A stretch of 55,653 nt of DNA, from contig DAHUYK010000033.1 in assembly GCA_027315245.1 (NCBI GenBank), positions 1 to 55,653 of the forward strand, written 5' to 3'. Under the pieces are notes generated by a model. It searched no databases and was not told the origin of the DNA. It was given only the letters and a program-made list of their open reading frames with translations. Origin of the DNA: Vulcanimicrobiota bacterium (GTDB lineage Bacteria; Vulcanimicrobiota; Vulcanimicrobiia; Vulcanimicrobiales; Vulcanimicrobiaceae). This document shows positions 28,659 to 40,030 of the stretch, piece after piece. The stretch's first letter is position 1, and each line of letters starts with the position of its first letter. The position numbers and the translations under genes were made by a program.

Positions 28659-28792
28659 CGCGCTCACACTGCGCGGTTCGCGCGAGCGTGCCTGTAGCCC
28701 CGCGCTGGCGCTGGGAAGCAGGCGTTCTTCGCGGCAATACTCCGCACCGCCGCACGCAGGCACTCGAGGACTCGTGCGCCAACGACAGCGGC

Positions 28793-29494
28793 GTGCACCC
28801 AGTTCTGCTCGTCGCGATCCTGGCGCTCTTACGGCCTTCGCAGCACGGCGACTTCGGCCATTACACGTTTGCTCTCATGTGGCAGCCCGGTATCTGCAGC
28901 ACCGAGGGCGGCTGCACGGCGGACCAACCGCACGCGACGCTCATCGGCCTGCACGGACTCTGGGCCTCGCGTCCACGCGCGCTCGTCGCGAAGGGCGTTC
29001 CGGTGCGCGTCTGGTGGTCGCGCGGGTGCGATTACTACGCGTACAGCACCGCACCGCCGCCGATCCCGGCGCAGCTGCGGCGCGAACTCGACGCGGTCAT
29101 GCCGCACTTCCGACACAGTCTGCTGACGCACGTGTCCGACAAGCACGTGCGCTGTTTTGGGTTCGATCCGGCGCTCTTCTTTTCAACCGAACTCGCCATG
29201 CGCTACGCGGTCGTGTCGAGCGGGTTCGGACGCTATCTCGTGGCGCACCGCGGCGAGCGTGTCACGCAATCGGCGCTCGGCGCGCGCTTCGAGAGCGCCT
29301 TCACGACGCGTGACCGCACGTCGCTGCAGCTGCAGTGCGGGCGCGACGCTTCGGGACGCACGGTGCTCACGCAGTTCTGGATTACGATCCGCTCGCAGAA
29401 GTTAGCGCGGTTTCCACGCAGCGGCTCGCTCATGGATGCCATCCAGAACCAGACGAACTGCCCGGCGTCCTTCTTGCTTCCGAACTGGCGCTAG
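28793..29494 (+). CDS. RNase T2-family protein with altered active site
   Basis: A 233-residue exported protein. The first active-site block reads IGLHGLWAS (His54), corresponding to the FTIHGLWP motif. The second block reads HVSDKHVRC (113-121), aligning with the usual HEWxKHGTC: His113, Lys117, His118 and Cys121 are kept, while the catalytic-site Glu is Val114. Paired Cys residues remain. It is either a weak ribonuclease or a non-catalytic member. GTG 28793 gives a hydrophobic signal (VLLVAILALL) but few positive charges and no clear ribosome-binding site; a GTG at 28688 in the same frame is the alternative start. Confidence 0.75.
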   Translation: MHPVLLVAILALLRPSQHGDFGHYTFALMWQPGICSTEGGCTADQPHATLIGLHGLWASRPRALVAKGVPVRVWWSRGCDYYAYSTAPPPIPAQLRRELDAVMPHFRHSLLTHVSDKHVRCFGFDPALFFSTELAMRYAVVSSGFGRYLVAHRGERVTQSALGARFESAFTTRDRTSLQLQCGRDASGRTVLTQFWITIRSQKLARFPRSGSLMDAIQNQTNCPASFLLPNWR

Positions 29495-30016: not shown

Positions 30017-33000
30017 TCACCATCGATACATCTGAGCCGCGTACGGCAGGCAGCCGTCGCGATACGGGAATCCCGGCCCGACGTACTGCCGGAACTCCGT
30101 CGCGGTCAGCGACCTTCCCGCCATGAGGCAGGCCGAGCGTGCCCAGATGGCGGGGTCGACGGCATAGACCGCAAGGCGATGGTCTTTGGCCTGGTCATCG
30201 TACGACGCCAGCAGGTAATGACCGTCTGCGCTGAACGCTAGAGAGTCGTACCGGCCCAGATCCGGGGGATTTGGAAGCGCGGCCGGATACGTTTCGTGCG
30301 TCGCCCAGTCGTAAAGATGCAGCGTCGCATTACCGTTGCCGTCTGCGCTCCAGTACGCGACGGTGCGTCCGTCAGGACTGCTCGCGAGCTGTTGGACCGT
30401 CGTCGGAATTCCAAGAAACGCTCCTGCTTTCCAATCGGGAAGACTAAACGCTACCTCGCGATAATCGCCGGAAACACCGCTCGTCGCGATCGCTCGGCGC
30501 TCGTCCGGCGAGACGTAGTCGATGGAGAAGGCCTTTCCGACGAGCGCGCCGTTCCAGCGAACGATGACGTCCGGAGCAGGCTCACGGACCTTGATGAAGA
30601 CGTAGTTGCCTCTGTCGCTTAGATTCCAGTTGACGATGGACGCCGGTGACACCCGAGCCGCACGCAGGAGCTGCGCGCGTTCGACGACGTTCAGCAATCG
30701 GCCGCGCGCGCTGTAGCGCTTTAAGGTTGCAAACGACGCCGCGTGCGAGAGAATCGTCACGACGTTCGCGCGCGGATCGTAGGCCGGCAAGACGAAGTAC
30801 TGATAGTATCCGTTCTTCACGGGAACGCGGGAAACCATAAAGCGGTCGAGCGTCACCGGCGTCGCCGACCGAATGTCGAGCACGCGCACCTCGCCGGTCA
30901 CCATGTTGAATGCGATAGCGTGTTCACCGTCGCCGCAGTCGAACATGTGCACGTGGTAGCTAACATCGTACGTCCGCTGGAAAGCGCGGCGAAACTGCCG
31001 CAGATTGAACTGCGCGTAGCCTGACCTCGTCGCCATGAGAAGATCGTGCCCGTGTAATCCGTAGCTCCCCGTCCACTGCGAATCCGGGATCGTGCCCAGC
31101 ATGGGGCCGTCGATGCGCGAGAACGACTGCAACGCAATCCCGCTTCCGTACGGATTCGGCTGCTCCGCGCGCGCCGGATCGTAGGGCGTGACGTACATGT
31201 TGAACTCCGGATCTGCTATCGGCAGCCGCTGCGCGCCGGCGTGGTCATCGTACTCGACGGCGTAGGCCTTTGTCTGCCCGTCGTAGTACAGTGTGCCGCC
31301 CTTTGCGACGACGTACGGCATCGACGCGCCCCGCGCGAAGTACAGCAGCGCCGCTGAAGCGCAGATCTCAACCGGGCAAGCGTACGCGCTGTCGGCCGAC
31401 GATGCGACCGGGCCAACGTGAAGGCTGCCGGCATCGTACCACGCAATCATCTTCTCGTCGGGCGTCATCGCGAGCGCACCCGCACATCCGGCAATGGGCG
31501 AGCAATCGTCACCTTGGGTAAAGAACCGCCTCTTGGAGAGCAAACGTCCCGTCGGGAGCGAGTAGATAGCGACGTCGCCGCCTCGCATCGTCACCGCAGC
31601 GATCCTTCCCGAATGTGAAAGCACGATACCGTCCGCTTCGCCGTTGACGCGTGCGACGATATGCGAGCCGCCAGGTTCGCCGATGCGCAGCGAGCCGGCA
31701 TCATCGACGTATGCGACGCGACCATCCGGCAGGCAACCGAGCGCACTCACGGACCCGCTGTGCAGACGTGCGACCTGCAACGGATGCGCAGAGACGTCGT
31801 ACCACGCGATTGCACCGGCACTCGCGATCGCGACGCGCGACGAGTCGTCAAATCCGCACATGAGCGAACCGCGGACATTCGGCAGACGTCCGAGTACGGC
31901 AAGGTTGGCCGCGTCGACAGTCACGAGCGACCCCGTGACGAGCTCTCCGTAGCGCTGCTGCCGCACGCCCGCGAGCACCGCGACGTCGCGGCCGCGATTC
32001 GTCACCGCCCCCAGCGTCCAGGGCGGCAACGCGACGCGGCCGATTGCATACGGGGTCCACGCAGCGGTGAGCAAAATGTCGCGACTTCCGCCAGCGCTGT
32101 CGGAGGCGTAGGCATCGGCGCCAAAGAGCCCGGCAACGCGATTGTCGACACCCGCTTGGTACATGCCGTAATCCATGTCGACGAGCGAGAGCGAATGCTC
32201 CACGTTCGACTCTCGTGCTGCGATCGTCGAGGCCTTCGCCTCCGACCGCCGCGCAACCGCGCTCTCTCGCCGAGCGATCGCCGCTTGCTCGTTCGCACGA
32301 CGAGCCGCACTCCGTGCGCTGCGCGCCCGCGCGACCGCCACGCCTTGCGCGACGACGAGACTCTTCAGCGCGGTCTGCGCAATCGCGGCCTCCCGCCGGG
32401 CTCCCTGCTCGGAGACGCGCGCTTTCGCTTCAGCAACCCGCGATCGAGCGCCCAGCACGATAGCGGTCATCGCAGCTCCGAGAGCGAGCACGGCGATGAC
32501 GCTCATGACTGCCGCCAGCAGGCGCGTGCGCTGCGCGAGCAGCCGCGCCGCGTTCGCCTGTTCTTGTGCGAGTTTCGTTTCGAGCACCAGACGCTCGCGC
32601 CGCTGCGTCTCTTCGGCCTCGATGCGCCGGCTCTCGGCTTCCCGCGATTGCGTGAGCGCGAGCCGGCTGTCGTTGAGCAGCTGCTCGACGCGTTCGAACG
32701 ATCCGCCGTAGCGTTCGGCCCAGGCGGCCGTGCGCGGTCGCGACGTCCAGCGCTCCCACCGTTCCTCCACCTGATCGAGCGGCAGCGTCACCGTCGCCGC
32801 GAGCGAGACGCCCTCGAGCATTGCCAGTAGACCGCGATAGAATCGCCCGTCCGCTTCCTCCCGCGCAAGCCAGCCGGTGTCTTGCGCGCTGATTTTACTC
32901 CAACGGCGCAGGAGCGCTTCGTGCACGACGTCGATGCGCGTGTCGTCACGCAGCATCGGCACCGCGGACGTCGACGGAACGATGAAGGAACAGTCTTCGG

Positions 33001-34105
33001 ACCGAAACCGATCGAGAATTCGCACGAGCTGCTCGCGCTGTAGGCCAGTCTCCGCGAGTAGTCGTTCGAAGAGCAGCGCGCGCCGCGTCGCCCGGCCCTC
33101 TTTGTCACGTTCGCTGAGCGCACGAAAGACGAGCTCGACGCCGTCTTCGAGCCCCGCCAGCGTTCTCGATGCGAGCACGTCGTTCGCGTGCTTCGAAAGC
33201 GCACCGTCGATGCCGCCGACGGACGCGTACGCCTGCAGCGTCAGATGCCGCTCTTTTGCGCGGCTCCACAAGCGCGCGAGACAATGCGAGAGCACGGGCA
33301 GCTGATCGAGTTCCGGACCGATGTCATTGAGCAACCGCTCAACGAGCTCCGGCTCGATCGTCGCGCCTGCCTTGACGATCGGCTCGCGTATGACTTCTTC
33401 GCGTTGATCGCGCGTCAGCGAGGGAACGAGAAACTGCGCCGCGCTCACGGCCTCAGGAAGGCCGTTGTAACGCGCACAATCGCCGATGAAGTCGGAGCGC
33501 ATCGTGATGAGGACGCAGATCTGGCGATCGGCGCTGCGCGTCGCCTCCAAGAGCGACTGCACGAAGAATGCGGCTTCGTCGCGTGAGAGCGTATCTTCGA
33601 CACGCTGTTTCTCGCCGGCGCCGAGGCCGGCATAGCGAAAGAGCTCCTCGAACTGATCGACGAGCAGCAGCACCGACGCGTCCGCAAGCTTCGGCATCTC
33701 GCCGAGCGCGGCCGAAATGCCGAAGCTGGAGCGTCCGAGAGCGAGCTCGATGCGGCGCCGGCGGATCTCGCGATGCGTCTCGTCGTCGTCCTCTTCGACG
33801 CGCGCTGCCAAATCGGAGAACGCCTCGGTGAGCTCCACCAACGGATGGTCGCCGGGATGGAGCGTTACCGTCTTCCACGTCTTCTCGTCTTCGAGTAGCG
33901 GCAGCAGCCCAGCGCGCACGAGCGACGATTTCCCGCTGCCGGAGCTGCCGATGACGGCGATGAACCGGCTCAGATCCAAGAGCCGATATATCTCCAAGAC
34001 GTGGCGGCGCCGGCCGAAGAAGAACGCGCGATCCGCGAACTCGAACGGACGCAGGCCCGGGAACGGCCGGTCGACCGAGAGTGCCGTTCCGGAGCGTGCC
34101 TTCAT
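30017..34105 (-). CDS. nSTAND ATPase with membrane segment and beta-propeller
   Basis: A 1362-residue protein. The nSTAND1-type NTPase begins with PFPGLRPFEFADRAFFFGR; Walker A GSSGSGKSS is at 53-61 and Walker B LLLVDQFEEL at 147-156. The helical part has LPVLSHCLARLW and DVVHEALLRRW (about 269-403). A coiled coil (485-525), one membrane helix (about 529-551) and a second coiled coil (555-635) lead to a C-terminal WD40-like propeller (about 660-1325). The tail AGRSLTATEFRQYVG...PYRDGC matches the conserved end of such proteins. STAND proteins oligomerise after sensing a trigger. It is the last gene of the operon, coupled by ATGA to the TIR gene, and is the probable sensor or scaffold. Confidence 0.9.
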   Translation of the reverse strand: MKARSGTALSVDRPFPGLRPFEFADRAFFFGRRRHVLEIYRLLDLSRFIAVIGSSGSGKSSLVRAGLLPLLEDEKTWKTVTLHPGDHPLVELTEAFSDLAARVEEDDDETHREIRRRRIELALGRSSFGISAALGEMPKLADASVLLLVDQFEELFRYAGLGAGEKQRVEDTLSRDEAAFFVQSLLEATRSADRQICVLITMRSDFIGDCARYNGLPEAVSAAQFLVPSLTRDQREEVIREPIVKAGATIEPELVERLLNDIGPELDQLPVLSHCLARLWSRAKERHLTLQAYASVGGIDGALSKHANDVLASRTLAGLEDGVELVFRALSERDKEGRATRRALLFERLLAETGLQREQLVRILDRFRSEDCSFIVPSTSAVPMLRDDTRIDVVHEALLRRWSKISAQDTGWLAREEADGRFYRGLLAMLEGVSLAATVTLPLDQVEERWERWTSRPRTAAWAERYGGSFERVEQLLNDSRLALTQSREAESRRIEAEETQRRERLVLETKLAQEQANAARLLAQRTRLLAAVMSVIAVLALGAAMTAIVLGARSRVAEAKARVSEQGARREAAIAQTALKSLVVAQGVAVARARSARSAARRANEQAAIARRESAVARRSEAKASTIAARESNVEHSLSLVDMDYGMYQAGVDNRVAGLFGADAYASDSAGGSRDILLTAAWTPYAIGRVALPPWTLGAVTNRGRDVAVLAGVRQQRYGELVTGSLVTVDAANLAVLGRLPNVRGSLMCGFDDSSRVAIASAGAIAWYDVSAHPLQVARLHSGSVSALGCLPDGRVAYVDDAGSLRIGEPGGSHIVARVNGEADGIVLSHSGRIAAVTMRGGDVAIYSLPTGRLLSKRRFFTQGDDCSPIAGCAGALAMTPDEKMIAWYDAGSLHVGPVASSADSAYACPVEICASAALLYFARGASMPYVVAKGGTLYYDGQTKAYAVEYDDHAGAQRLPIADPEFNMYVTPYDPARAEQPNPYGSGIALQSFSRIDGPMLGTIPDSQWTGSYGLHGHDLLMATRSGYAQFNLRQFRRAFQRTYDVSYHVHMFDCGDGEHAIAFNMVTGEVRVLDIRSATPVTLDRFMVSRVPVKNGYYQYFVLPAYDPRANVVTILSHAASFATLKRYSARGRLLNVVERAQLLRAARVSPASIVNWNLSDRGNYVFIKVREPAPDVIVRWNGALVGKAFSIDYVSPDERRAIATSGVSGDYREVAFSLPDWKAGAFLGIPTTVQQLASSPDGRTVAYWSADGNGNATLHLYDWATHETYPAALPNPPDLGRYDSLAFSADGHYLLASYDDQAKDHRLAVYAVDPAIWARSACLMAGRSLTATEFRQYVGPGFPYRDGCLPYAAQMYRW

Positions 34106-35637
34106 ATTTTCGTGATGATCGGGTCGAGGCCGTCCGGCGGAAGGGTGGCATACTCGGTGAGATCGAGCGTGACGTCGATGCCTTTGCTCTGCTTGCGCTT
34201 GAGGCGCACCTTCTTTGCAGGAAGATTTGGCGGTGGCCCCGCGACGAGCGCGCGTAGGGTGAACGGCTTCGGACGCCCGAGTTTGGAAACGTCCTTGAGC
34301 GTCTCTTCCTTTGCGTCGACCCAGTTGTCGGGCGCTTTCGCCCAGCAGAGCACGACGGCATCGCAGCTCTGCATCTTCTTGCGGTTGACGGCCTCGGTCT
34401 TGCGCGGCTCCTCTTTGTCGAAGGCGGGAATGGACGCGTATATCTTACGCTCTTCGAGCACATCGATGCACTGCTCCGCGTACTCCCAATCTTTCTCCGA
34501 AAAATCGAGGTAGACGCTGTCGCCCGCGACGAGCTGCTTGCCGGAGACGTCCGGCAACGCCGCAATACGCTCGAGGTGCTCCACGACGAACTCGACGAAG
34601 GCGCTGAGCTCACTGCCATCGATTTTGTCGCTTGGCAGTTGCTCACCAAACCTCTTGAGCACGTCGAGAGGATCGCGCTCGGTTTCGCGCACCGCCGTGC
34701 CGTCGTCGCCGACGAGTACCTTGGGAGCCCATACCATCCGCTTGAAGTCGGCATTCGTCTTCGCCCGCTCTGCCGCGAGCTCGAGCTGGAACTGCACGAT
34801 TGGAGGGCACCCGTCGGGTTGGCCACCCGGCGACTCACCGAGGAGATGGATCGACACTTCAGCGTCCCGCAATGCGTCCTGCGCAAACGCGCGCGCGTCC
34901 TCGACGGGAATGCTCTGGGCGAGCGAAGGCCTCACGTCATAGTCGCGCCGCGCAAGCTCTTCGACGACGCGCGCATACGCCGAGCGCATGTCGGCAGCGG
35001 GCTTTGCCACGTAGATGGCGCGGCGTTTCCCGCTCGCGGGAGCCGGCGCAGCGCATGGCGCGGACGCCGGGGGCGCCTCGACGTTGGATGCCGAGCCGGT
35101 CGACTGCGCCCGTTTCCACAGGTTCTGAGCAAGCGTTCGAATCACGTCGTCGTATCCTGCTTGCGGCTTGCCGTAGCGAAAGTACTCGAGCTCCTCTCCC
35201 TCCGCGTCGGTCTTTTCACGCGAATAGAACTCGTACGACGACTGGCCTTGCAGTGTCGCGGGCCGCCGGTCGAAATCGATGTACTGCTTGGAGACGATCC
35301 AGATGCGCTCTTTGAGCGCGCGCTGGCCGGCCGTCTTCCAGCGGTCTGCGAAGAGTTCCAGTTCGTGCTTGCAGTAGGCGCTCGCGAGCCAGTTTCTCGA
35401 AAGGATGACGAGCAGGAGATCCGATCTCTCAATGCCTTCTTGAATGACGGGGTCGAACTGCTCATGCGGTGCGATTTTGCGGCGATCCCACCACATCTCC
35501 GGAACGACGCCGCCTTTGTCGCGAAACTCGAAGGCGAGATTCTCGCGAAGCGCGGTGGCGAAGCCTTTCGCGCCTTGCGCGGACGGCGGTATGGTATCGT
35601 CATCTCGCGCATACGAAATGAAGAACTGGAACGGCAT
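34102..35637 (-). CDS. Triple TIR-like domain protein
   Basis: A 511-residue protein. TIR1 (about 1-125) starts FQFFISYARDDD and keeps the WxxxxYCKHEL segment, with Glu92 at the place of the NADase catalytic Glu. After a Pro/Ala linker (185-203), TIR2 (about 206-310) starts RRAIYVAKPAADMRSAY but has PIVQFQLELA where the Glu is expected, so it may be inactive. TIR3 (about 372-475) starts DSVYLDFSEKDWEYAEQC and contains AVVLCWAKAPDNWV. TIR domains bind or hydrolyse NAD+ in bacterial immunity or make cyclic ADP-ribose signals. The ATG overlaps the patatin stop by one base (TGATG). The first module is well supported; the second and third are structural inferences. Confidence 0.85.
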   Translation of the reverse strand: MPFQFFISYARDDDTIPPSAQGAKGFATALRENLAFEFRDKGGVVPEMWWDRRKIAPHEQFDPVIQEGIERSDLLLVILSRNWLASAYCKHELELFADRWKTAGQRALKERIWIVSKQYIDFDRRPATLQGQSSYEFYSREKTDAEGEELEYFRYGKPQAGYDDVIRTLAQNLWKRAQSTGSASNVEAPPASAPCAAPAPASGKRRAIYVAKPAADMRSAYARVVEELARRDYDVRPSLAQSIPVEDARAFAQDALRDAEVSIHLLGESPGGQPDGCPPIVQFQLELAAERAKTNADFKRMVWAPKVLVGDDGTAVRETERDPLDVLKRFGEQLPSDKIDGSELSAFVEFVVEHLERIAALPDVSGKQLVAGDSVYLDFSEKDWEYAEQCIDVLEERKIYASIPAFDKEEPRKTEAVNRKKMQSCDAVVLCWAKAPDNWVDAKEETLKDVSKLGRPKPFTLRALVAGPPPNLPAKKVRLKRKQSKGIDVTLDLTEYATLPPDGLDPIITKI

Positions 35638-36917
35638 CACGGTACGCCTTCTTGCGGCCGGGGAACGCCCCCTTCGCTCGGCGGGCGGCCAGGCTGGCGC
35701 GCGAAGAGAAAGCCGCCGAAGTGCTCCGGCCGGACACACCGCTCCGCCGCTGCCCGGCCCACTCGTTCCAGCTCGTCCAGGTATTCGACGCTGTCGAGCG
35801 GCTGTAGGGTACGCGGGTCGATTCCGGGTGGCGAAGCATTCGGATCGTAGAGGCCGAGCTGCGCGAGCGACGTCGCGGAGAGCTCCACGTTGTACCGCGC
35901 ATAGGTGAAGAGCTTCTCGCTTAACGGCGAAGCGTTTTCGACGAGCGTTCCGATCTCGGAGTCGATAGGCGAGAGCCCGCAGTCGGCCACGGTCTTGCCG
36001 AACAAGCGACAGAGCATGTCCTGCTCGACGGTCGCGCCCCGAATGAGCGCAGCCGGCGTCGATCGCGCACTGTAGAGCAAGCTCATGTCGCGCAGACGCA
36101 GATCGAGGTTCGCGCTTTCGCAGAAGCCTGTTCCGACGGAGAGCAAGAGTACGTCCTGCGCGCCGGCCTTCCATTTGACTTCATACTCGGGCATCGTCGC
36201 CATGAGGAAGAGCTGAAACGCAGGATTGTTGTACACGGTAATCCCGCCGTCCATGAAGACGAACGGCTTTGCAACGCCGGGAATCTCGATACGTTCGGAG
36301 GGAAAATAGACCGGTGCCGCGGTGCTCGCTCGAACGAGTTGCCAGAGCGGCAGGTCCAGATTAGACGGGCCGCCGTCCGCGCCGCGGCGATTGTACATCG
36401 CGCGCGGATTGTTGGAAAGCGTCCACGGGGAATCGGTGCTCTCATTGCGCATTACCACCATGAGCAGCGTCGCAAGACGCTGCGCGCCGAGCGTCGTGTC
36501 GTCACCGGCGATTCGTTTGATCTGCCGCTCCAAGGGCTTTGCGTCGTACATCGCACGATACAGCAGCATGCCGAGGACTCCCACCACCACCGAGAGCGGT
36601 GCCGGCAGATGCCGTGCGACGCGCTGGAGAACGTTTGGGTCGAACATCGTGTGCGCGCCCACGCGATACTGAGCGCGGATCTCGTTCATCGTGTAGCCGA
36701 GTGCGACGAGCATCGCAATGATGGCGCCGGTGCTCGTTCCTCCAACGTAATCGAAGTACTCGCAGAGACGCAACTCGGGCCGCTTCAGTTCGTCGCGCAG
36801 CAACGCTTCGACGCGCGCCAGCATCTCGATGGCGATGAGCCCTCGGATCCCGCCGCCGTCGATCGAGAGCAGCTTCTTCGGACCCGGAGCATCGATGAGT
36901 GCGTCGAGGTGGCTCAT
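35637..36917 (-). CDS. Patatin-like phospholipase
   Basis: A 426-residue patatin. The oxyanion loop DGGGIRG is at 20-26, the nucleophile elbow GTSTG at 60-64 (Ser62) and the catalytic-dyad DGG at 223-225 (MDGGITVYNNP). The dyad is complete, so it should cleave acyl ester bonds of phospholipids. A hydrophobic segment near 105-122 may help membrane contact. Patatins of this type (CapV in CBASS) kill the cell by membrane damage when activated. The ATG overlaps the upstream SLOG-TM stop by four bases and the TGA overlaps the TIR start. No CD-NTase is nearby, so activation is probably by the operon's own components. Confidence 0.92.
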   Translation of the reverse strand: MSHLDALIDAPGPKKLLSIDGGGIRGLIAIEMLARVEALLRDELKRPELRLCEYFDYVGGTSTGAIIAMLVALGYTMNEIRAQYRVGAHTMFDPNVLQRVARHLPAPLSVVVGVLGMLLYRAMYDAKPLERQIKRIAGDDTTLGAQRLATLLMVVMRNESTDSPWTLSNNPRAMYNRRGADGGPSNLDLPLWQLVRASTAAPVYFPSERIEIPGVAKPFVFMDGGITVYNNPAFQLFLMATMPEYEVKWKAGAQDVLLLSVGTGFCESANLDLRLRDMSLLYSARSTPAALIRGATVEQDMLCRLFGKTVADCGLSPIDSEIGTLVENASPLSEKLFTYARYNVELSATSLAQLGLYDPNASPPGIDPRTLQPLDSVEYLDELERVGRAAAERCVRPEHFGGFLFARQPGRPPSEGGVPRPQEGVP

Positions 36918-38551
36918 ACGACGATAACCTTCATCGGACGCTCGCGCCGGGCGATGAGCCAGTCTGCGTGTTCGACCAATGCCGCGCGCCCAAGTTCGTA
37001 CAGAATCTGAGACGGCGCGCCGGGCTTTCCACGGCGGATGTCGAGCAGCGAACGCCGCGCACGGTCGAAGACCCGAAACATGCGCGCGTAACGGCGTGCG
37101 TTCGCACCGAGGTTCTGCTTCTCTGCGTAGACGCCGAAGAGCGCGACGAGCACTGCAACCATCGCGATCGGAACGGTGAGAAAGTTCACGTACAGATCGA
37201 AGTGCGTGATCGCAAGAACCGCCGGCGACGGGCAGCGCGCGCCAAAGAGTGCGCAGTACCATTGCCCGTCCACGACCAGCGCCGCGAACGAAGCGGCCGT
37301 GCACGCCATGGCGACGACAATCGCTACACGCCCGATGCGATCGAGAAGTGTCTTGGAGCGCGCCTCCCTGCGGCCGGCCTTGTAGTAGTAGCGCCACTGC
37401 GAGCGCACCCAGGTCGCGCAGTCGGGGTGCTCCGCGCCGGCCTGCGCGCAAGGGCGCCCTTCGCAACAGGCGAGATAGAAGTAGCGCAGCGCCATACGTA
37501 TCCACTGCAGCTCGCCTTCCTGCATCTTGAGGTACTCGTTGTCAACGAGCCTGCCGGTAAGGCCTGCGCAGTGCCAGGCGTTCTGCACGCGCAAGCCTTC
37601 GGCGACGGCGCGATAATCTTGGTAGCGGTTCTCGTAATCATGCGTCTTCGCCCACTCGTACACGAGAAAAGCGACGAGCAGTCCGGCAACCTTCCATATC
37701 GCCGGGAAGTGCGTGACGAACTGCACGCCGGCTACGACGAACGCACAGGAGAGCAGGGCCGTTTGAAAGCGATTGGCGCTTCGCTGCAGCCGATTTGCCG
37801 CGACGTCCGTTCGCTCGACGAGCGCGTGCAGCTCGGAGCCGCGCGCAACGACGGCAACGTGCGCGAGATCGGCGTTGTAGAGATCGATCGCCGCGACGGC
37901 TCTGCGAAAGGCGTCGCCGGCATCGCTCTCGCGCAGGAAGAGCCGCGGGTAACGTCGCCGCACGACGAATGCGTCCGCCGAGCGTCCACCCTCCGCGCGC
38001 GGAGTGACGATCTGATCGACCGGGCCCACATCGGGCAGATACCGAACGCTCTCGATGTCGCCATGCGCCTCGCCAGTGAGGCGCATGGACACGACATCCG
38101 CGGTGCCGCCCGCGCCCCGCCCCGCCTCGCCGTCCCAAAAGGCGACGACGACGTGACTGTACTGCGTGATGAACCGTCCCGCAGCGACGTAGCCGCTCTC
38201 ACGCTGCGGCGACGTGACGATGACGCGTGCCGCCTGCGCGAGCAGCACGTGAAAGCGCTCCAACTCTGCGGGCGCGAAGTCTCGCTCGTACTCCTCCACC
38301 GGCATCGGGAGGCACGCGACGATCGCAACGTTTCGTGCCAGAGCCTCCTCGGCCGCGAGGCTGTCCGCGCCGGCGGCCAGGCCCGAGAGCACGAGCAGCG
38401 GCGTGTGCGGGCACGATCGCGACAGGTCGTCCAAGATTCCCGCAAAGGCAGCGCGCAGCGGCGCTTCGTCGGCCGGCGCGACGTCGCGATGACCCGTCAC
38501 GCCCACGACGAGCGCGACGCGGTCCGCTTGCATCTGGGGCATCCGCTGCAT
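36914..38551 (-). CDS. SLOG-like sensor with four membrane helices
   Basis: A 545-residue protein, first gene of the operon. The N-terminal Rossmann-like domain (about 10-140) has VGVTGHRD at 17-22, LVLSGLAAGAD at 53-63 and a VACLPMP strand end, as in SLOG (LOG/DprA-like) nucleotide- or NAD-derivative-binding domains. Two membrane helices at about 262-300 and two more at about 408-427 and 455-475 flank a cytosolic helical region with a Cys-rich patch (360-378). This resembles SLOG proteins joined to SLATT-type pore-forming helices. It may sense a nucleotide signal and open a membrane pore. Family assignment is from motif pattern only. No strong promoter is seen in the 48 bases to the divergent MFS gene. 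Confidence 0.7.
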   Translation of the reverse strand: MQRMPQMQADRVALVVGVTGHRDVAPADEAPLRAAFAGILDDLSRSCPHTPLLVLSGLAAGADSLAAEEALARNVAIVACLPMPVEEYERDFAPAELERFHVLLAQAARVIVTSPQRESGYVAAGRFITQYSHVVVAFWDGEAGRGAGGTADVVSMRLTGEAHGDIESVRYLPDVGPVDQIVTPRAEGGRSADAFVVRRRYPRLFLRESDAGDAFRRAVAAIDLYNADLAHVAVVARGSELHALVERTDVAANRLQRSANRFQTALLSCAFVVAGVQFVTHFPAIWKVAGLLVAFLVYEWAKTHDYENRYQDYRAVAEGLRVQNAWHCAGLTGRLVDNEYLKMQEGELQWIRMALRYFYLACCEGRPCAQAGAEHPDCATWVRSQWRYYYKAGRREARSKTLLDRIGRVAIVVAMACTAASFAALVVDGQWYCALFGARCPSPAVLAITHFDLYVNFLTVPIAMVAVLVALFGVYAEKQNLGANARRYARMFRVFDRARRSLLDIRRGKPGAPSQILYELGRAALVEHADWLIARRERPMKVIVV

Positions 38552-38599: not shown

Positions 38600-40030
38600 A
38601 TGACGAGGAGCGCCGGCGAGGCCCGGGCGACGCGCACCGCCGTGCTCGTCGCTGCCATCATCGCCTCGAGCATGAGCTACATCGACGGCACCGCGATCAC
38701 CGTAGCTCTGCCGGTCATCAAAGCGCGTCTGCCCGCTTCGGACGCGCAAGCGCAGTGGACCGTCGAGGGATACCTGCTTTTCCTTTCGGCACTCATTCTC
38801 GTGGGCGGCGGTTTGGGCGATCGCTACGGACGGCGGCGCCTTTTCACGCTAGGTATTTGGACGTTTGCCCTCGCCTCCATCGCGTGCGCCTTGGCGAGCA
38901 GCGCATCGCTGCTCGTCGCGGCGCGATGCGTGCAAGGCATCGGAGCAGCGCTCATGATTCCGGAGAGCCTTGCGCTCATCACTGCGGTATACGATCCTAA
39001 AGCGCGCGGGGGCGCGATCGGCGTATGGGCCGCCGCATCGGCGCTCACGATGGCAGTCGGACCACTCGTGGGAGGATGGCTGACGCAAAGCATGTCGTGG
39101 CGGTTCGTCTTTTGGATCAACGTGCCGCTCGCAATCGCCGTGCTCGTTCTCTGTGCGACCCGCGTCCCCGAGAGCCGCGCACGCGACGTTCGAGGACGCC
39201 CCGACGTCGTTGGAAGCGCGTGCGCCGCCGCAGGCCTCGGGCTCGTCGTCGTCGCGATGATGCAGCTCCAAGAGGCGCGGCATCCGTTTGCCGTGTGGCT
39301 CGCTGCCGGCGGCATCGCGTTGCTCGTCGCGTTCGTTTTCATCGAACGCATTGCATCGGCTCCGGTTGCGCCGCTTCGCCTCTTCACCTCGCGCGCGTTC
39401 TCGCTCGCCAACCTCTATACGCTGCTCCTCTATGCTGCGCTCGGCGGCGCCCTTTTTTACGTGCCGTTCGAACTGCAACACGTCATGAACTACACGCCGC
39501 TGAGTTCCGGGCTCGCGCTGCTTCCGACGATCGCCCTCGTCGCGCTCTTCTCGCCGGGCGCCGGAAAGCTCTCCGGCCGCATCGGCGCGCGCCTTCCGCT
39601 CGTGGCCGGCGGCGCCACGGCGGCGCTCGGCTTTGCGCTCTTCGCGCGGCTGCACGCAGGCGCAGCGTATCTCGAAAACGTCTTTCCTCCGACGATGCTC
39701 GTGGGGATCGGCCTTTCCATCCTCGTGGCGCCGCTCGTCGCAGCCGTCATGGGTGCTGCCGATTCCGACGATGTCGGCGCCGCTTCAGGCATCAACAACG
39801 CAATCTCGCGCGTGGGAAACTTGGTCGCGATTGCCACGCTCGGCCTCATCATCGCGCTGCGCGGCGGCGGCCCGCTGCCGCAAGCCTCGCATCCTCACGG
39901 CTTTGCAAACGCGATGTTTGCCGCGGCGCTCATGGCCGCAGCAGCCGCGCTCGTCGCGCTCTTCCTTCCAGCACGTGCTTCGAGCGAGGAGGCGCCCGCT
40001 CGGGGAAGGAACGCGTCATCTTCAGGGTAG
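38600..40030 (+). CDS. DHA2-family (EmrB/QacA-type) MFS drug exporter
   Basis: A 476-residue transporter with about fourteen helices, as expected for DHA2. Helix 1 contains SMSYIDGTAITVALPVI; motif A is GGGLGDRYGRRR; motif C follows in ALTMAVGPLVGGWLT. It exports drugs or other hydrophobic compounds by proton antiport. The ATG at 38600 was chosen; a much longer frame reaching back to 36899 is a shadow of the opposite-strand operon. It is divergent from the conflict operon and followed 16 bases later by a secreted protein. Confidence 0.9.
   Translation: MTRSAGEARATRTAVLVAAIIASSMSYIDGTAITVALPVIKARLPASDAQAQWTVEGYLLFLSALILVGGGLGDRYGRRRLFTLGIWTFALASIACALASSASLLVAARCVQGIGAALMIPESLALITAVYDPKARGGAIGVWAAASALTMAVGPLVGGWLTQSMSWRFVFWINVPLAIAVLVLCATRVPESRARDVRGRPDVVGSACAAAGLGLVVVAMMQLQEARHPFAVWLAAGGIALLVAFVFIERIASAPVAPLRLFTSRAFSLANLYTLLLYAALGGALFYVPFELQHVMNYTPLSSGLALLPTIALVALFSPGAGKLSGRIGARLPLVAGGATAALGFALFARLHAGAAYLENVFPPTMLVGIGLSILVAPLVAAVMGAADSDDVGAASGINNAISRVGNLVAIATLGLIIALRGGGPLPQASHPHGFANAMFAAALMAAAAALVALFLPARASSEEAPARGRNASSSG

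Follow-up and report, generated by a model that had tools for sequence, protein, structure and literature searches.

A candidate modular conflict system in a soil Vulcanimicrobiota genome, with a TIR–STAND cassette and a cassette of SLOG-linked membrane effectors

The locus and its closest described relatives

In Thoeris, a SLOG domain reads cyclic ADP-ribose made by a TIR protein (PMC11204291). SLATT proteins have been predicted to act as nucleotide-gated pores in TIR-bearing systems (PMC7159879), TIR and SLATT occur together in phages (PMC9503650) and nSTAND1 ATPases have been described in conflict systems (PMC8195603). Here we describe a minus-strand run of four genes (positions 30017-38551) in a soil bacterium of the phylum Vulcanimicrobiota, represented by a metagenome-assembled genome of 2.1 Mb and 96% completeness; the window, meaning the whole stretch of DNA analysed, is an entire contig of 55.7 kb. 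Translation of the window confirmed the four genes described in an earlier note on this DNA, with overlaps of 4, 1 and 4 nt between genes encoding, in order, a SLOG protein with four transmembrane (TM) helices (SLOG-4TM, SLATT-like; gene 1), a CapV-like patatin (gene 2), a triple-TIR protein (TIR3; gene 3) and an nSTAND1 ATPase (gene 4). We put at roughly 60% the probability that the locus is an NLR-like conflict system built of two modules, one cassette being a STAND/TIR sensor and the other a set of SLOG-gated membrane effectors. Patatin, TIR_2, SLOG-4TM and nSTAND1 (above cut-off) are each present once genome-wide, and as all four singletons fall at this locus, inside 8.5 kb of 2.1 Mb, the arrangement is not a matter of chance.

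The locus resembles type I Thoeris (ThsB TIR with ThsA SIR2-SLOG) in encoding a TIR with a catalytic glutamate beside a SLOG protein and, in the logic we propose, in having an NAD-derived messenger that would be read by SLOG. It differs in that the effector lacks SIR2 and joins its SLOG domain, nearest in fold to YpsA and DprA, to four TM helices of SLATT-like type, and in that the TIR is partnered by a STAND ATPase, with a patatin in addition. Thoeris with a TM-macro ThsA also has a transmembrane effector, believed to cluster in response to the TIR product and so to perturb the membrane (PMC11204291); however, the reader in our locus is SLOG rather than macro, its TM organisation is different and the STAND and patatin are extra. 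Gene 1 has neither a SIR2 nor a macro domain and no match to ThsA models, and ThsB models match gene 3 weakly. Membership of Thoeris was therefore rejected, since a ThsB-like catalytic-glutamate TIR is present but no ThsA of either the SIR2-SLOG or the TM-macro kind.

With CBASS the locus shares a patatin of the CapV group. No match to SMODS (PF18144) was found in the genome, other CD-NTase models not having been tried genome-wide, and gene 2 scores 96.7 bits against the CBASS lipase model NF041079, for which the cut-off is 200; despite the CapV homology the locus is thus not assigned to CBASS, although its mode of action may combine those of Thoeris and CBASS. The FxsC protein of FxSxx-COOH systems is a further relative, as its N-terminal model matches the first TIR domain of gene 3 (3e-7) and its TIR likewise works with a STAND-type ATPase. 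This assignment was also set aside, because the match reaches 30.5 bits against a cut-off of 130 and neither an Fxs peptide nor a radical SAM gene was seen among the genes examined. The SLOG/SLATT/TIR and STAND conflict networks predicted by Aravind and colleagues include both a TIR-linked SLATT pore and nSTAND1, but the papers concerned (PMC7159879, PMC9503650, PMC8195603) do not describe the two-cassette combination of SLOG-4TM/patatin with TIR3/nSTAND1. The earlier note knew of no described system with all four parts. Across partial coverage of the literature (the founding 2015 SLOG/SLATT work lies outside it) we likewise did not find the combination described, and priority is not established; however, the parts and the TIR-to-SLOG/SLATT logic have already been predicted in general form (PMC7159879, PMC9503650). 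We regard the combination as a new variant within TIR-to-SLOG conflict signalling, not as a category of its own.

The four proteins

Gene 1 has weak family matches in Pfam and NCBIfam (DUF4231 4.6e-5, DprA 2.4e-4, SLATT models 1e-3, and YspA). Its AlphaFold2 model, built from 57 homologues, is confident, with a mean predicted local distance difference test score (pLDDT) of 91.9, a predicted TM-score (pTM) of 0.90 and a pLDDT above 90 for the SLOG domain. Foldseek places the N-terminal part of the model with YpsA (1.4e-4, probability 1.00), DprA, ShosA and LOG structures, and as modelled it is a SLOG (YpsA/DprA/LOG) fold. Helices make up the C-terminal part, where four hydrophobic segments lie at residues 262-280, 279-297, 409-427 and 457-475. 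The SLOG-like protein with four membrane helices proposed from the letters alone is thus borne out. The DUF4231 score of gene 1 (24.2 bits) lies just below the cut-off of 24.7, and that of a Caballeronia orthologue (30.9 bits) lies above it; we read the membrane part as a tandem SLATT. A PDB sequence search with gene 1 gave a chance match only. TRPM2-like channels also join a SLOG-type domain to a membrane part and are gated by ADP-ribose. Foldseek matches of gene 1 to TRPM8 and the TRPM2 chanzyme are weak and not significant, and its membrane part is SLATT-like rather than a TRP channel.

Gene 2 matches the Patatin family at 1.7e-25 and CapV structures at 3e-25. The motifs GGGIRG (at 21), GTSTG (at 60) and DGG (at 223) are all present, and are invariant among relatives except that DGG becomes DGA in some. 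The patatin is thus complete, as had been proposed, with its catalytic site intact. In one relative, the patatin itself (L131:11551-13254, the same gene as L056:10666-12369) carries a SLOG-like region at its C-terminus, and in two others a 180-aa SLOG gene overlaps the 3' end of the patatin gene (L050:2867-3409 and L052:3142-3684). The conserved CGADxLA and WDG motifs of these patatin-linked SLOG regions can be aligned to gene 1. Gating of the patatin by SLOG is therefore plausible.

Gene 3 opens with a typical TIR domain (TIR_2, 2e-12), whose glutamate of the WCxxE type, Glu92, is invariant across homologues. Two further, divergent TIR-like Rossmann domains appear in the structural model, which agrees with three TIR-like modules as first proposed; the catalytic glutamate is, however, retained in the first module only. 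The model has a pTM of 0.39, and the packing of its domains is therefore unreliable. The middle module of an orthologue matches DUF4062, which is reported to comprise TIR-like enzymes that hydrolyse NAD+ (PMC13174449).

Gene 4 is firmly an nSTAND1 ATPase (8.9e-84), with intact Walker A (GSSGSGKS, 53) and Walker B (LLLVDQFEE, 146) motifs, and has one strong TM segment at residues 533-551. In all 21 STAND homologues scanned, hydrophobicity likewise peaks between the ATPase and the sensor, and the charges flanking the helix leave its orientation unfixed. The earlier note described a membrane-anchored nSTAND with a propeller: ATPase and anchor stand, but the propeller is weakly supported in gene 4 itself (WD40, 0.04). 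A close homologue matches a beta-propeller at 2e-4, and more distant orthologues have canonical WD40 repeats. Across the STAND homologues, the same ATPase is joined to propeller, WD40, TPR or unrelated sensor halves.

Distribution of the cassettes and exchange of sensors

The phylum was sampled through 149 genomes, and a search with the gene 1 alignment gave 381 SLOG relatives, 80 of which were examined. This alignment worked as a query; a single triple-TIR sequence used against genome contigs recovered no related loci. The SLOG-4TM gene occurs in 36 of the 149 genomes. Each of the 20 genomes with the patatin family also has it (20/20; hypergeometric 2e-15), as do 21 of the 22 with the triple-TIR gene (6e-15). 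These genome-level tests ignore phylogeny; the genus-level value for the patatin (9/9 genera within 14/70, 3e-8) is safer and handles relatedness only roughly. TIR3–nSTAND pairing is obligate: in the phylum and among the Burkholderiales cases alike, no complete triple-TIR gene lacks an nSTAND gene after it. The conserved units are two separable cassettes, SLOG with patatin and TIR3 with nSTAND. They face each other in L036, L038 and L069, face apart, or have the patatin divergent, in L045-L049, and are unlinked in some genomes; co-occurrence persists even on separate contigs or at 20 kb (G110, G112, G059, G129, G128). Co-occurrence of the four families thus agrees with what had been proposed, but their four-in-line order is found in this genome only among the loci examined, and the overlapping four-gene operon is not itself the conserved unit.

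Counted by hand, about 27 of the 36 SLOG genomes have TIR_2 no more than 10 kb from SLOG, against a background of roughly 155 TIR_2 matches over all 149 genomes; three of the genomes without such a neighbour have the gene on very short contigs. The neighbouring TIRs have several architectures, namely the triple-TIR, CHASE2-TIR with TPR proteins, and a short divergent TIR-TM. CHASE2-TIR genes lie near SLOG-4TM at L050:3423-9162, L039:7622-9628 and L032:2687-4453, that of L050 accompanied by FecR-TPR and TPR-S genes, and would apparently form an alternative, extracytoplasmic sensing module. Directly downstream of nSTAND, a gene for a secreted RHS-repeat protein, perhaps a periplasmic partner, is present at L046:1610-3316, L047, L048:341-2521, L049 and L056:12366-14015, the RHS matches being confirmed for L046 and L048 only.

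The sensor cassette is exchanged. Identity of gene 1 to its counterparts in the same genus is 54-61%, whereas TIR3 of the window shares 43-44% identity with the TIR3 proteins of another family but just 24% with those of its own genus. The STAND protein is a mosaic, with residues 1-480 of the other-family type (about 50-80% identity, versus 30-57% to the own genus) and the protein from about residue 600 onward of the own-genus type (about 35-75% identity, against 10-30%). The switch falls near residues 480-540, just ahead of the membrane helix. An assembly chimaera was considered as the cause and seems unlikely: two false junctions would have to fall inside 3 kb, and GC content at third codon positions is even across the genes at 76-80%. 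Because TIR3 and the ATPase are both of the other-family type and the sensor half is of the own-genus type, TIR3 and ATPase appear to travel together and the sensor half separately. Such joint movement would be expected if TIR3 and ATPase touch, and the pattern is suggestive, though not proof, of a plug-in sensor.

Beyond the phylum, cultured Burkholderiales have triads of these genes: TIR3, nSTAND and SLOG-4TM stand in line in Scleromatobacter humisilvae (L132), as do SLOG-4TM (annotated DUF4231), TIR3 and nSTAND1-WD40 on the mobilizable plasmid pSBC2-4 of Caballeronia SBC2. The triple-TIR, a single gene in SBC2, is annotated as two pieces on pSBC1_3 of Caballeronia SBC1 (L191). By hand count, 22 of 56 SLOG loci outside the phylum have a TIR within 10 kb; the SLOG–TIR link is therefore common, not universal. 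The patatin is mostly absent there. A SIR2-TIR fusion lies upstream of SLOG-4TM at L138:5094-9733 and L149:5042-6730, with an nSTAND1 gene between the two in L138. Plasmid and phage searches with the single gene 1 sequence gave no match, a weak negative because the Caballeronia plasmid does carry a divergent SLOG-4TM. Viral contigs hold SLOG-SLATT relatives at five places (L186-L190), some only fragments.

Within the window, an MFS transporter gene (38600-40030, plus strand) is divergent from gene 1. The same layout occurs in four related genomes, and in Caballeronia an annotated MFS gene is likewise divergent from the SLOG gene. It was set aside as a part of the system, its recurrence in the four relatives being taken as shared ancestry. 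Downstream of the operon, on the opposite strand, lies a gene for a Ribonuclease T2-like protein (28688-29494, plus strand; 1.1e-4, just under cut-off). Promoter and terminator scans gave chance-level results, and Rfam gave no match.

Table 1. Coordinates in the window of the four genes and their features
Feature	Position	Strand	Remarks
Gene 1, SLOG-SLATT-like membrane effector (putative)	36914..38551	-	545 aa
Gene 1 SLOG domain	about 37862-38551	-	
Gene 1 helical four-TM part	about 36932-37834	-	
Gene 2, patatin-like phospholipase	35637..36917	-	426 aa
Gene 2 Ser62 of GTSTG	about 36732-36734	-	
Gene 2 Asp223 of DGG	about 36249-36251	-	
Gene 3, triple-TIR protein (TIR3)	34102..35637	-	511 aa
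Gene 3 TIR 1	about 35098-35637	-	Glu92 at 35362-35364
Gene 3 TIR-like 2	about 34558-35025	-	orthologue matches DUF4062
Gene 3 TIR-like 3	about 34153-34521	-	
Gene 4, nSTAND1 ATPase with C-terminal sensor	30017..34105	-	1362 aa
Gene 4 nSTAND1 ATPase domain	32828..34066	-	type of another family of the class (f3)
Gene 4 membrane helix, residues 533-551	32453..32509	-	between ATPase and sensor
Gene 4 C-terminal sensor half (degenerate beta-propeller)	30017..32188	-	type of own genus

Candidate mechanism and alternatives

The most likely mechanism draws on fold, motif and association evidence, on the Thoeris precedent (PMC11204291) and on the SLATT predictions (PMC7159879, PMC9503650). At rest, the nSTAND1 protein, with its C-terminal repeat sensor near the membrane helix, would hold the triple-TIR protein inactive. 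Engagement of the sensor would cause the ATPase to oligomerise and release the catalytic first TIR domain, which may then cleave NAD+ to give an ADP-ribose-type signal. Binding of this signal by the SLOG domain of gene 1 would open or cluster the four-helix SLATT-type membrane part, which would depolarise or permeabilise the inner membrane, and the co-translated patatin, probably also switched on by the nucleotide product, would break down membrane lipid. The putative outcome is that the cell stops growing or dies and so blocks the invader. The comparative evidence fits the roles given in the earlier note, with STAND as sensor, TIR as signal maker, SLOG-TM as the reader that permeabilises the membrane and patatin as an added lipase. 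As SLOG-4TM in this phylum is usually near some TIR, not only the triple-TIR, and the patatin is mostly absent outside the phylum, the core is TIR (with STAND) and SLOG-SLATT, and the patatin is accessory. It is conceivable, if on the doubtful side, that the STAND is a transmembrane split NLR, with ATPase and TIR in the cytoplasm and an exchangeable propeller, WD40 or TPR sensor outside the inner membrane.

Several observations weigh against a TIR-signalled, SLOG-gated conflict system. The genes flanking the locus are ordinary (RND pump, helicase, TonB receptor), so no defence island surrounds it. ThsA has no sequence match to gene 1 and is not among its top fold matches, and for the SLOG domains linked to related patatins a three-sequence search gave modest scores (E 1e-6 to 2e-8). 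TIR3–nSTAND pairs also exist in Burkholderiales without an adjoining SLOG, and 34 of the 56 SLOG-4TM loci outside the phylum have no TIR inside 10 kb, several of them on short contigs; the SLOG protein may thus respond to different signals.

The pairs that lack SLOG would suit direct NAD+ depletion, in which TIR3 released by the STAND kills by draining NAD+. On this reading SLOG-4TM and patatin act separately, as effectors or regulators triggered by the ADP-ribose so formed or by damage to the membrane, without a dedicated messenger. The conserved TIR glutamate agrees with this, as does the match of an orthologue's middle domain to a family of reported NAD+-hydrolysing enzymes (PMC13174449). 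Retention of the SLOG gene in nearly every phylum genome with TIR3 is, however, unexpected for a self-sufficient TIR3, and we regard depletion as rather unlikely. The membrane-anchored STAND could instead sense extracytoplasmic conditions in an envelope-stress or regulated-death circuit that is not directed at phage and leads to dormancy or lysis, with CHASE2-TIR and secreted FecR-TPR or RHS-repeat proteins as sensors in relatives. The TM segment shared by all STAND homologues scanned, the CHASE2-TIR and signal-peptide-bearing TPR or RHS genes that adjoin SLOG or TIR3–nSTAND, and the lack of a defence island are in keeping with such a circuit. We nevertheless judge it unlikely, as a patchy, modular distribution with sensor exchange is typical of conflict systems rather than of housekeeping stress responses, and in Caballeronia SBC2 the genes are carried on a mobilizable plasmid. 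That two functionally separate operons were joined here by chance is very improbable. The four-in-line order peculiar to this genome and the unlinked cassettes elsewhere would be consistent with it, but the families co-occur strongly even in the unlinked cases, the four singletons are crowded together with overlapping reading frames, and triads occur in other phyla.

If the two-cassette system operates as proposed, it would carry TIR-to-SLOG immune signalling past Thoeris into a circuit that has an NLR-like sensor of its own and a pair of membrane effectors. It would also offer a direct test of the older prediction by which SLOG-SLATT proteins form pores gated by nucleotides. Should the STAND also prove to be a split NLR, recognition outside the inner membrane would be linked to a messenger made by TIR, and this messenger would open both a pore and a phospholipase through their SLOG domains. 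The swapped sensor halves and TIR–ATPase segments provide a natural experiment for learning which surfaces have to fit each other, and the Burkholderiales triads provide cultured, closed-plasmid versions that are open to testing.

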